From NCBI GenBank assembly GCA_035995165.1, contig DASYKU010000022.1, forward strand, positions 1 to 44,829: DNA of 44,829 nt, written 5' to 3'. The position numbers and the translations under genes were made by a program. The notes beneath the pieces were generated by a model. The model had not been told where the DNA came from. It saw nothing but the letters and a program-made list of their open reading frames with translations, and did no database searches. Positions 38,125-41,772 of this stretch are shown piece by piece. This DNA is from Mycobacteriales bacterium (GTDB taxonomy: Bacteria; Actinomycetota; Actinomycetes; Mycobacteriales; CADCTP01). Position 1 is the stretch's first letter. The number at the start of each line of letters is the position of its first letter.

Positions 38125-38195
38125 GCGAGCGGGTGGCGACGAGGTCCGGTCGGCTGGCGCCTGCGCCTGCCGGGCTGGCCGAGGAGCGGGCATGA
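38121..38195 (+). CDS. 24-residue coupling ORF between rnhB and DUF2469 gene
   Basis: ATG overlaps the rnhB stop (ATGA) and its TGA overlaps the DUF2469 ATG (ATGA). Ribosomes ending rnhB could therefore run through it into the next gene. It encodes MSERVATRSGRLAPAPAGLAEERA, with no recognisable domain. The DUF2469 ribosome site (GAGGAG) lies inside it. It may act only by being translated. Confidence 0.45.
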   Translation: MSERVATRSGRLAPAPAGLAEERA

Positions 38196-38500
38196 GTGCT
38201 GAAGATCTCGAGAAGTACGAGACCGACATGGAGCTGCAGCTGTACCGGGAGTACCGGGACATCGTGCGGCAGTTCGCCTACGTCGTCGAGACCGAGCGCC
38301 GGTTCTACCTCGCCAACGCCGTCGACCTGCAGGTCCGCAACGCCGACGGCGAGGTCTACTTCGAGCTGCGGATGAGCGACGCCTGGGTCTGGGACATGTA
38401 CCGCCCGGCCCGGTTCGTGAAGAACGTCCGCGTGGTGACCTTCAAGGACGTCAACGTCGAGGAGCTGGAGAAGCCCGACCTCGAGGTGCCGGACGCCTGA
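38192..38500 (+). CDS. DUF2469-family protein
   Basis: 102 residues, all-alpha/beta acidic small protein conserved in actinobacteria: MSAEDLEKYETDMELQLYREYRDIVRQFAYVVETERRFYLAN ... DAWVWDMYRPARFVKNVRVVTFKDVNVEEL. No catalytic motif is known; the aromatic-rich middle suggests a compact fold. The ATG is 5 nt after GAGGAG. Always near rnhB and yraN in this phylum; role unknown. Here the block to yraN is interrupted by about 2.9 kb of lectin genes. Confidence 0.95.
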   Translation: MSAEDLEKYETDMELQLYREYRDIVRQFAYVVETERRFYLANAVDLQVRNADGEVYFELRMSDAWVWDMYRPARFVKNVRVVTFKDVNVEELEKPDLEVPDA

Positions 38501-38519
38501 TCTGGGTACGCCGTCTCCC

Positions 38520-38687
38520 ATGACGCGTGAAGAGCCCGCTCCCGACCCCGAGCGGCCCGACATCCCCGCCGCGCCCGCCGACGCCCCCGAGGGCACCGTG
38601 CCGCCGGTCCGTTCCCTGCACGGCACCTCCGAGACCGCGCCGCCGGTCGAGGGCGTACGGACCCCGGAGCCGGACGACCCGGAGTAG
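38520..38687 (+). CDS. Short acidic, proline-rich hypothetical protein
   Basis: 55 residues, MTREEPAPDPERPDIPAAPADAP and so on, ending PEPDDPE: acidic, Pro-rich and certainly disordered. ATG is 20 nt after the DUF2469 stop. There is no Shine-Dalgarno; TACGCC sits 7 nt upstream, missing the last T of the -10 pattern. Third positions are mostly G/C as in real genes. Could be a genuine small protein or chance in Pro/Ala-rich sequence. Confidence 0.45.
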   Translation: MTREEPAPDPERPDIPAAPADAPEGTVPPVRSLHGTSETAPPVEGVRTPEPDDPE

Positions 38688-38759
38688 TCGGCCCGTCGGC
38701 CCTGCCGCTGGTGTCGCATCGCTCGTACGGTGTGGTTCGGGTCGAGGAGAGGGCGGCGA

Positions 38760-39103
38760 TGGGGGGCTGCGCTCTGGCGCAAGCAGTTGCCGGACGGTCC
38801 GTGGCAGTCGCTGGGCGGCCGGCTCGGCTCCGCCCCGGGCACTCTCCCGGCGGTCGGCGAGCGAGCTGTACATGGTGGGCAACGAGCACGCGCTCTGGTC
38901 GGCCTGCCAGGCTGCCGGCAGCTCGACCTGTCCCGGTTCGTCCGGATCGGCGGCATGCTGACCCGTGGGGCAGCGCAGCTGTGGAAGCCCTCGACGGCGG
39001 CACCGACGCTGCGGCTGGTCGTCGGCCCTGGCGGTGACAACCGGCTCTGGCGCGCACCAACCAGGTCGGGACGGGCACCTGGACCTGGCGCCTGATCTCC
39101 TGA
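38760..39103 (+). pseudogene. Decayed copy of the PLL-like lectin gene
   Basis: The text matches the last third of the two intact lectins downstream if three small frameshifts are allowed: GAALWRKQLPDGPWQSLGGR, then SELYMVGNEHALWSACQAAGSST, then LSRFVRIGGMLTRGAAQLWK, then TNQVGTGTWTWRLIS and stop. Against the 39238 copy, single bases are missing after 38930 (CTGG became CTG) and near 39052 (CGCGGC became CGCGC). Signal peptide and the first blades are absent. The same hairpin as behind the intact copies follows at 39118. Confidence 0.8.
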
Positions 39104-39117
39104 CCCTTCCTCACAGT

Positions 39118-39140
39118 GGTCCGTCCACTCCGGACGGACC
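39118..39140 (+). terminator. Lectin-family hairpin 1
   Basis: Perfect 9-bp stem GGTCCGTCC/GGACGGACC with 5-nt loop ACTCC, 14 nt after the pseudogene's stop. The stem is identical in sequence to the one at 40181. Confidence 0.7.
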
Positions 39141-39164
39141 GCCGCTGCCTTGCCCGATCGGACA

Positions 39165-39190
39165 GACCTGGGGCCAGGTCGTACCAGGTC
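39165..39190. promoter_or_regulatory. CCAGGTC repeats upstream of the first intact lectin
   Basis: GACCTGG-GG-CCAGGTC (39165-39180) is an inverted pair, and CCAGGTC recurs 10 bp on (39184-39190), so three half-sites lie one helical turn apart. Looks like an operator; not present in front of the second lectin. Confidence 0.35.
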
Positions 39191-39202
39191 CGCTCCCGTA
39201 CC

Positions 39203-39229
39203 CCTCCTGGGGTCGACATGACCAGGAGG
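39203..39229 (+). promoter_or_regulatory. Hairpin covering the lectin ribosome-binding site
   Basis: CCTCCTGG (39203-39210) pairs perfectly with CCAGGAGG (39222-39229), which contains the Shine-Dalgarno of the lectin GTG at 39238. The 11-nt loop holds ATG 39218, the start of an 8-codon frame (MTRRWGK, stop) that ends overlapping the GTG. Translation of the small frame would open the hairpin. Confidence 0.45.
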
Positions 39230-39237
39230 TGGGGAAA

Positions 39238-40170
39238 GTGACCCTGTCCAGAACTCTCGTCCCGGCGCTGCTCGGCGCGGCGCTGGTGACGCTGCCGCTG
39301 GCCGCCCCGGCCGCGGCGGCACCGCAGCCGCACGTGCTGCTCGGCGACATCTCGGATGCGGCGCTGAGCACGACCGCGTTCGGCGGCCTCGACACGTTCT
39401 ACGCGTCGACCGGCAACACGCTCGTGCACAAGGCCGAGGGGAGCGCCGCGGAGGACCTCGGCGGCGCCCTGCACGAGGGCCCGGCCGCGATCACGATCGG
39501 GTCGGAGTTCGCGAGCACGTGGGCGTTCGCGGTCGGGACCGACGACGCCGTCTGGTTCCGGCAGTTCTCCGACGGCCGCGGCACCTGGGGCCCGTGGACG
39601 CCGGCCGGCGGCCGGTCCTTCTGGCCGCCCGCGGCCACCTGCACCGGCGACGCCACCGCCCAGCCCACCCTGTACTCGCTGGGTACCGACGGGGCGATGT
39701 GGCGCAAGTCCCTCGCCGGCGGCAACTGGGCCCCGATCGGCGGCCAGTTCTTCTTCGGCCCGGGCGCGGTCCAGGCGCAGGCGGGCGTGTGCCCGTCGGA
39801 CCAGGACGTGTTCGGCGTGGCCACCAACTTCGCCGTGTACGAGAACCGCGGCGGTGGCTGGGCCAAGATCGGCGGCCAGGCGATCCTCTCCCCGGCGCTG
39901 ATCCGGCAGCCCAACGGCAGCACCGAGCTGTACGTGGTCGGCTTCGACAACGCCCTCTGGACGGCCAGCCGGGCTGCCGGCAGCTCGACCTGGTCGCGGT
40001 TCATCAGGATCGGCGGCAACCTGACCGGCTCGCCGGCGGCCCAGCTCTGGAAGGCGACGCCGACGTCGCCGACGCTGCGGGTGGTCGTCGCCCGCGGCGG
40101 GGACGGCCGGCTCTGGCGCGGCACCAACCCGGTCGGCACCGGCACCTGGACCTGGCGTCCTGCGCCGTAG
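39238..40170 (+). CDS. Secreted PLL-like beta-propeller (lectin-type), copy 1
   Basis: 310 residues. A Sec signal peptide (MTLSRTLVPALLGAALVTLPLAAPAAAA, AxA cleavage about 27) precedes about six repeats of one blade. Each blade has a DGAMWRKSLAGGNWAPIGGQ-like core: an acidic-Ala/Asn-[VLM]-W turn followed by W..IGG. These are the marks of PLL-family beta-propellers (DUF346-type repeats), proteins that in other bacteria bind fucosylated or methylated glycans. A Cys pair (CTGDATAQ and VCPSDQD) may form a disulfide. GTG start with AGGAGG 8 nt upstream, held in a hairpin. It is 40-50% similar by eye to the next gene, a tandem duplicate. Sugar ligand unknown. Confidence 0.82.
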   Translation: MTLSRTLVPALLGAALVTLPLAAPAAAAPQPHVLLGDISDAALSTTAFGGLDTFYASTGNTLVHKAEGSAAEDLGGALHEGPAAITIGSEFASTWAFAVGTDDAVWFRQFSDGRGTWGPWTPAGGRSFWPPAATCTGDATAQPTLYSLGTDGAMWRKSLAGGNWAPIGGQFFFGPGAVQAQAGVCPSDQDVFGVATNFAVYENRGGGWAKIGGQAILSPALIRQPNGSTELYVVGFDNALWTASRAAGSSTWSRFIRIGGNLTGSPAAQLWKATPTSPTLRVVVARGGDGRLWRGTNPVGTGTWTWRPAP

Positions 40171-40180
40171 CCACCCGTGC

Positions 40181-40203
40181 GGTCCGTCCATTTCGGACGG
40201 ACC
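40181..40203 (+). terminator. Lectin-family hairpin 2
   Basis: 9-bp stem GGTCCGTCC/GGACGGACC with loop ATTTC, 10 nt after the stop; same stem as hairpin 1. Confidence 0.75.
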
Positions 40204-40281
40204 GCTGCCCGTTCGGGCACTCTTCCTCCGCAGGCAACATTTCTGCGCCGCTGGCCATCGAGCAGGGTGGAGGTGGGGAGA

Positions 40282-41202
40282 ATGAATCTTTCCAGGGGGA
40301 GGACCGCACTCGCGGTCCTGAGCGGCGCGGCGTTCCTGCTGCCGCTGACCGGTACGGCGGCGGCCGATCCGGCGCCGCAGCCGGTGTTCGACCACTCGGG
40401 CGCCGCGGTGACCACGACCAACTTCGGTCAGCTGAAGTACTTCTACGAGGCCGCGGACGGCACGCTGGCCCAGTACACACAGGACGACCCGATCGGCCAG
40501 GGCGCCGGGCCGAGTCTCGGCGGCGCCCTGCACAGCCGGCCCGCGGCGGTCACGGTCAACGCGGACGACGACATGTACGTGTTCGCCACCGGGGCCGACG
40601 ACGCGGTCTGGTTCCGGAAGTTCGTGCGTGCCACCTGGGGCCCGTGGACGTCGATCGGCGGCCGCTCGCTGACCGCGCCGGCGGTCAGCTGCGCGGCCGA
40701 CACCCAGCCCCTCGTGTACGTCGTCGGCGGCGACGGGGCGCTCTGGCGGCGGAGCCTCGCCGGCGGCGGCTGGTCCTCGCTCGGTGGCCGGATGGGCTCG
40801 GCCCCGGCCGCGGTCCCGGCGGTCTCCGGCACGTGCGCGGTCGAGCAGGACCTCTTCGTACGCGGCGACAACGGCGCCGTGTACGAGAACCGGGCCGGCA
40901 CCGGCTGGACCCGCGTCGGCGGCCTGACGTTCCAGGCGCCGACCGTGATCCGGCTGCCCAATGGCAGCACCGAGGTCTACGTGATCGGCACCGACGGTGC
41001 GCTCTACCTTGCCAGCCGGGCTCCGGGCGGTGTCTTCTCGTCGTTCCACCGGATCGGCGGGGTGTTCACGTCTTCTCCGTCGGCGCAGCTCTGGCGGTCC
41101 GGGACGCTGCGCGTGGTGGTCGGGCAGGGGGCCGACGGGCGGGTCTGGCGCGGCACCAGCCGGGTCGGCTCGTCGATCTGGGCCTGGACGCGGCCGTTCT
41201 GA
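40282..41202 (+). CDS. Secreted PLL-like beta-propeller (lectin-type), copy 2
   Basis: 306 residues, paralogue of the preceding gene. Signal peptide MNLSRGRTALAVLSGAAFLLPLTGTAAADP (cleavage near 28), then the same blade series: DDAVWFRKF, GDGALWRRSLAGGGWSSLGGR, DNGAVYENRAGTGWTRVGGL, TDGALYLASRAPGG and DGRVWRGTSRVGSSIWAW. The two Cys (CAADTQ, TCAVEQD) are conserved with copy 1, suggesting a disulfide outside the cell. ATG start after GTGGAGGTGGGG with no covering hairpin. So the two copies may be expressed differently. Surface or extracellular glycan binding is inferred. Confidence 0.82.
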   Translation: MNLSRGRTALAVLSGAAFLLPLTGTAAADPAPQPVFDHSGAAVTTTNFGQLKYFYEAADGTLAQYTQDDPIGQGAGPSLGGALHSRPAAVTVNADDDMYVFATGADDAVWFRKFVRATWGPWTSIGGRSLTAPAVSCAADTQPLVYVVGGDGALWRRSLAGGGWSSLGGRMGSAPAAVPAVSGTCAVEQDLFVRGDNGAVYENRAGTGWTRVGGLTFQAPTVIRLPNGSTEVYVIGTDGALYLASRAPGGVFSSFHRIGGVFTSSPSAQLWRSGTLRVVVGQGADGRVWRGTSRVGSSIWAWTRPF

Positions 41203-41216
41203 CGTTCTTCCGCTGA

Positions 41217-41249
41217 CCGCCGGGTCGTCCACTTCGGACGGCCCGGCGG
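41217..41249 (+). terminator. Lectin-family hairpin 3
   Basis: 14-bp stem from CCGCCGGGTCGTCC with its complement (one G-U pair), loop ACTTC, 14 nt after the stop. It extends the same GTCC/GGAC core as hairpins 1 and 2. Confidence 0.8.
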
Positions 41250-41313
41250 TTCCGTTGCTCCGGTGCCTGTTCATGTGTCGTGTCTTTCATGTCTCGTGAC
41301 TCGTGTCGAACGT

Positions 41314-41347
41314 CTGTCCACAGCCGAACGCGTTGTCCACAGTGGAC
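41314..41347 (+). promoter_or_regulatory. Two DnaA-box-like sites upstream of yraN-comM-dprA
   Basis: CTGTCCACA (41314-41322) and TTGTCCACA (41333-41341) start 19 bp apart in the same orientation. The second equals the described actinobacterial DnaA-box consensus and is also part of the palindrome GTCCAC-A-GTGGAC (41335-41347). They lie about 65-95 nt before the yraN start, in a locally less GC-rich gap. Confidence 0.5.
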
Positions 41348-41409
41348 GTTTTCGGTCTGTCGTCCGCCCTGCACACTCGCGAGGCTCGTTCCCGACGAGG
41401 GGAGGACTC

Positions 41410-41772
41410 GTGGGACGGGTCAAGGGCGCGGTCGGCAGGTTCGGGGAAGAGCTGGCGGCGCGGCATCTGGAGGGCGCCGGGCTGCGGATCGTGGATCGCA
41501 ACTGGCGCTGCGCCGAGGGCGAGATCGACATCGTCGCCGCGGACGGCGACACGCTGGTGTTCTGCGAGGTGAAGACCCGCTCGGGCACCGGCTTCGGCGA
41601 CCCGGCCGAGGCGGTGACGGCGGTGAAGTCGGCCCGGCTGCGCCGGCTCGGGCTGCGCTGGCTGGCCGCGCACGGCATCGGCTGGCGGGACCTGCGCTTC
41701 GACGTGGTGACCGTCTTGCGCCGGCACGACGGCGGCGACCCGGTCGTACGACACCTCAAGGACGCGTTCTGA
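41410..41772 (+). CDS. yraN: YraN-family (UPF0102) endonuclease-fold protein
   Basis: 120 residues with a restriction-endonuclease-like fold. Motifs: FGEELAARHLEGAGLRIVDRNWRCAEGEIDIVAADGDTLVFCEVKTR, where E-x-D and E-x-K are the PD-(D/E)xK nuclease residues. The role in bacteria is unclear, perhaps DNA uptake or repair, given its fixed place next to comM and dprA. The GTG is preceded by GGGGAGG. The comM ATG overlaps its stop by one base (TGATG). No anomaly. Confidence 0.94.
   Translation: MGRVKGAVGRFGEELAARHLEGAGLRIVDRNWRCAEGEIDIVAADGDTLVFCEVKTRSGTGFGDPAEAVTAVKSARLRRLGLRWLAAHGIGWRDLRFDVVTVLRRHDGGDPVVRHLKDAF

Follow-up and report, generated by a model that had tools for sequence, protein, structure and literature searches.

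How did a small family of lectin genes come to lie among housekeeping genes, and is it expanding or decaying there? This question is raised by a locus in a Mycobacteriales bacterium whose genome comprises 5.37 Mb in 162 contigs; the window analyzed here is one entire contig of 44,829 nt. A preliminary description of its sequence had placed two intact secreted propellers and one wrecked copy, all related to PLL lectins, head to tail between DUF2469 and yraN. We found two open reading frames with signal peptides and Shine-Dalgarno sites and, 5' of them, a relic, as described. The order on the plus strand is, however, DUF2469, a 55-aa small ORF, relic A, lectin gene B, lectin gene C, and yraN, so that the small ORF separates DUF2469 from the lectin block (Table 1). 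The G+C content of the block (0.71 to 0.76) matches that of its surroundings and thus gives no sign of recent foreign DNA.

Table 1. Positions and basis of assignment of the features of the lectin locus (window coordinates).
Feature	Positions	Strand	Basis
DUF2469 gene, left housekeeping neighbor	38192-38500	+	Pfam PF10611, E 2.5e-53; 99% identical in congener
Conserved small ORF, 55 aa, left border of lectin block	38520-38687	+	Nucleotide identity to congener; C-terminal motif
Relic A, piece 1: one blade, like C 40725-40824	38751-38855	+	Nucleotide alignment
Relic A, piece 2: 3' end of lectin gene, like B 39924-40170, two single-base losses	38862-39104	+	Nucleotide alignment
Hairpin after A, 11-bp stem	39116-39142	+	Homologous to those after B and C
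Lectin B, 310 aa, GTG start, signal peptide about residues 1-28, predicted six-bladed propeller	39238-40170	+	ORF, sequence matches, AlphaFold model
Hairpin after B, 11-bp stem	40179-40205	+	z-score -5.05 for 40168-40240
Lectin C, 306 aa, ATG start, signal peptide about residues 1-28, predicted six-bladed propeller	40282-41202	+	ORF, profile match, AlphaFold model
Hairpin after C, 16-bp stem	41215-41251	+	Stem prediction
yraN (UPF0102), right housekeeping neighbor	41410-41772	+	Pfam PF02021, E 1.1e-28

The small ORF apparently encodes an unannotated conserved protein. Its nucleotide sequence is 82% identical over 38519-38682 to that of the congener, the sole other genome of the genus in our collection (G001). 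The predicted product is proline-rich and ends in the motif GTSE-x-x-x-PV-x-G, which also lies 3' of DUF2469 in 9 of 26 loci from several families, at an expected chance frequency of about 1% per locus.

To which family do B and C belong? Neither protein was recognized in searches of Pfam and NCBIfam. Among PDB sequences, B matched the PLL/PHL lectins of Photorhabdus (E 6.7e-27), as did a profile of B and C (E 6.9e-31); all eight sequences matched by the profile were PLL/PHL (E 1e-22 to 1e-31), and these were the sole convincing PDB matches. AlphaFold models, built on three-sequence alignments, had pLDDT values of 79.8 (B) and 77.6 (C), and in both the 23 listed strands fall into six groups of about four, so that the fold, which is a prediction and not a solved structure, would have six blades. 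Structural searches with the model gave two rankings. Foldseek, whose score mixes sequence and shape, placed PLLs at the top (E 3e-15), whereas VIA-align placed six-bladed fucose lectins first (Z 28; 2.5 to 3.2 Å over 266 to 272 residues) and PLL4 next (Z 24; 25% identity). The predicted toroid aligned with those of the fucose lectins AAL and AFL with Z values of 26 to 28 over about 260 to 278 residues, but the B+C profile found no match to them in sequence at an E value of 1, and identity in the structural alignment was 9 to 15%. Thus, the proteins are PLL-like by sequence and fold, as had been proposed, but have six predicted four-stranded blades in place of the seven of PLLs, for which reason we do not file them as seven-bladed PLLs; six-bladed lectins also score above PLLs against the model. 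Several homologues in related genomes contain six regular motif units, so a six-bladed form is not unique to the genome studied. B and C probably work like a PLL, although only some of the residues at PLL sugar sites could be matched in them. One ORF in a related genome (G075, locus L012, 1501-2805) is very regular: its 434-aa product repeats a PLL-like motif unit six times, exactly every 44 residues.

Both intact genes have Shine-Dalgarno sites and appear to encode exported proteins. The start of B is preceded at 8 nt by AGGAGG, and GGAGG lies 5' of the start of C. Judged by eye, both N termini combine a charged residue and a hydrophobic stretch with an AAA-type cleavage site and lack a lipobox, from which we infer that the products would be exported by Sec as soluble proteins of about 280 aa when mature. 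B and C are 50 to 53% identical in amino acid sequence and have two cysteines in common (C135 and C185 in B numbering), which may form a disulfide. They differ in their blade motifs: of the six blades, B retains the tryptophan of the ALW motif in four and C in three, and where blade 5 of B has the aromatic pair Trp/Trp, that of C has Tyr/Phe and has thus lost its tryptophans. These differences suggest that the two proteins would retain different numbers of active putative pockets, as is seen among PLLs.

We next consider the wrecked copy. Relic A extends over about 38751-39104, and its clearest ungapped resemblance in piece 1 is to C (81% over 48 nt), while piece 2 is 79% identical to B over 282 nt that include the 3' hairpin (E 2e-61). 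The interval from the small ORF to the relic resembles the first part of B or C no more than shuffled sequence does, indicating that the front has been lost. There are three frame changes, at the junction 38855/38862, at 38929/38930, and near 39052. The latter two are single-base losses that can be read against the neighboring copy B, as had been claimed. The first, previously counted as a further frameshift, belongs to an internal deletion: about 143 to 146 nt, or one blade, are absent at the junction, and this length is not a multiple of three. Could A be an artefact of assembly or sequencing? Two of its three frame changes are losses of one base beside a G, as such an error might produce, but its front and about 145 nt of internal sequence are gone as well, and a difference of 17% from B in the aligned coding part shows that it is no misassembled B. 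Moreover, 11 neighboring genes aligned with those of the congener over 2,855 codons contain no frameshift or stop. We therefore regard an error of this sort as very improbable.

The 3' flanks bear on how the copies arose. The hairpins after A, B, and C are homologous to one another and stable and are not followed by a run of T; they are possibly terminators. A, B, and C are thus three head-to-tail copies of one unit consisting of a gene and its 3' hairpin, which, with the sister relationship of B and C described below, bears out tandem duplication. Separately, the core of the hairpin occurs 15 times in the genome, and the flanks at the seven other sites inspected are all different, so the hairpin was rejected as a dispersed repeat of this kind.

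How old are the duplications? Where codons encode identical residues, silent differences amount to 0.23 between B and C, 0.21 between A and B, and 0.23 between neighboring genes and their counterparts in the congener, well below the level of 0.41 expected at saturation for the codon usage of this genome. The corresponding Nei-Gojobori dS values are 0.43 (B and C, mature part), 0.29 (A and B, 76 codons), and 0.38 (11 neighboring genes, pooled). Because third positions are 94 to 97% G+C, absolute dS values are rough, and the argument is carried by the comparison with the neighbors. Since the values for the lectin copies are similar to that for the split within the genus, the duplications are of that order of age, and the recent amplification put forward in the preliminary description is not supported.

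The proteins have nonetheless evolved fast, with a dN/dS of 0.90 between mature B and C (bootstrap 95% interval, 0.68 to 1.25) versus 0.33 for the neighboring genes. This would be expected if B and C were under positive selection that tracks changing glycans, with A a discarded variant of the arms race, and the unlike aromatic residues of blade 5 and the longer branch of B (0.64, nearly three times the 0.23 of C) point in the same direction. However, the ratio does not exceed 1, and strands (0.92) and loops (0.90) do not differ, although selection acting on binding loops would be expected to raise the ratio in the loops; relaxed constraint explains the data equally well. We consider positive selection unlikely. 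The opposite account, in which the entire block is under relaxed constraint and being lost while B and C are open yet little used, draws on the same ratio near 0.9, the death of one copy in three, and the absence of any copy from the congener. Yet B and C have kept open frames, starts, signal peptides, the cysteine pair, and blade motifs at a dS of 0.43, and this account too seems to us improbable. The earlier view that surface recognition here is either diversifying or dispensable is consequently left with both halves, as the fast evolution fits either and the absence from the congener fits the second.

The distribution of the family bears on both its origin and its persistence. In a search of 297 other genomes (E 0.001, the best few candidates per genome being scored, so that weak homologues may escape), PLL-like domains were found in 31, many inside larger proteins, and the best relatives of B and C were 32 to 37% identical. 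By the same scoring, the family is absent from the congener, so the three-gene state is not fixed across the genus; with one congener, the absence fits loss there or gain here. Homology between the window and the congener ends after 38682 and restarts near 41300-41380. The slot in the congener is occupied by the small ORF and, on the opposite strand, a SnoaL-like gene (named by eye; about 2250-2610 of L038), and the latter was not found in the genome studied in a search run without a positive control. DUF2469 and yraN had been taken to be usually adjacent. Among the 20 relatives in which both genes were found in the fetched stretch, they lie within 400 nt of each other in 12 (gaps of 123 to 372 nt), but the gap is 638 to 1396 nt in the other 8 and often holds different ORFs, so the adjacency is borne out in part. 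The gap is a variable slot. No relatives of B and C were found in phages and viral contigs, which gives no hint of a phage origin, and a plasmid search returned two weak matches (28 to 30% identity). A tree of 39 rows groups B with C as sisters (support 100/100) on a long stem of 1.06. The tree program warned of long branches meeting at the point where the pair attaches, which leaves its closest relative outside the pair uncertain; B and C themselves group on the basis of 53% identity. Judged from these sequences, the B-C pair is specific to the lineage and has no close relatives.

Collectively, these data lead us to favor, as the probable reading, that the variable slot between DUF2469 and yraN houses a long-established family of secreted lectins related to PLL, which is specific to this lineage, is arranged in tandem, and drifts in copy number as genes are born and decay. 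On this reading, Sec would export B and C, which would adopt a six-bladed toroidal fold that the conserved cysteine pair perhaps stabilizes. They would be multivalent, with sugars bound between blades in pockets like those of PLL and PHL, each protein retaining different pockets. New copies would come from unequal recombination between neighboring units and be lost by decay, which we propose would follow if binding were an advantage in some settings but not in others. That the target is a host or phage glycan is speculation. A stronger version, in which this is a six-bladed, Sec-exported branch of PLLs in one bacterial lineage whose neighboring copies diverge by selection for different sugar specificities, is doubtful. 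The initial observation is sound and of an ordinary type, most likely the gain and decay of copies in a small group of lectin genes, and leaves the picture of how such families evolve unchanged. It does add a secreted, tandemly duplicated relative, predicted to be six-bladed, to a lectin family known almost entirely from work on Photorhabdus, and B and C form a natural pair with which to ask how sugar recognition responds to blade number and to the loss of pockets.

The closest known system is the PLL family of Photorhabdus (PLL, PLL2 to PLL5, and PHL), which has the repeated blade motif G-T/S-D-x-A-L-W in common with B and C. In P. laumondii, a stretch of 7.7 kb contains five PLL paralogues (PMC12203525); likewise, two genes and a remnant lie in tandem here. 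PLLs have seven blades and about 370 aa, whereas B and C have six predicted blades and a shorter mature chain, and the two groups are 22 to 25% identical in structural alignment. No signal peptide is recognized in the Photorhabdus proteins (PMC12203525), whereas those of B and C, identified by eye, are of the Sec type. The sugar pockets of PLLs (H and P sites) lie between blades and have conserved tryptophans, and fucosylated and O-methylated sugars are preferred (PMC12203525); O-methylated sugars are common in some bacteria, fungi, and nematodes (PMC6943638). In blade number, the predicted toroids of B and C instead resemble the fucose lectins AAL, AFL (FleA), AOL, and SapL1, their best structural matches, although these gave no sequence match and those listed are fungal. 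PLL-like domains from the same order and class (e.g., at L010, L012, L069, and L029) have the motif in common with B and C at about 27 to 37% identity, but those proteins are often 550 to 720 aa long with the propeller in the C-terminal half, whereas B and C stand on a long stem of their own.
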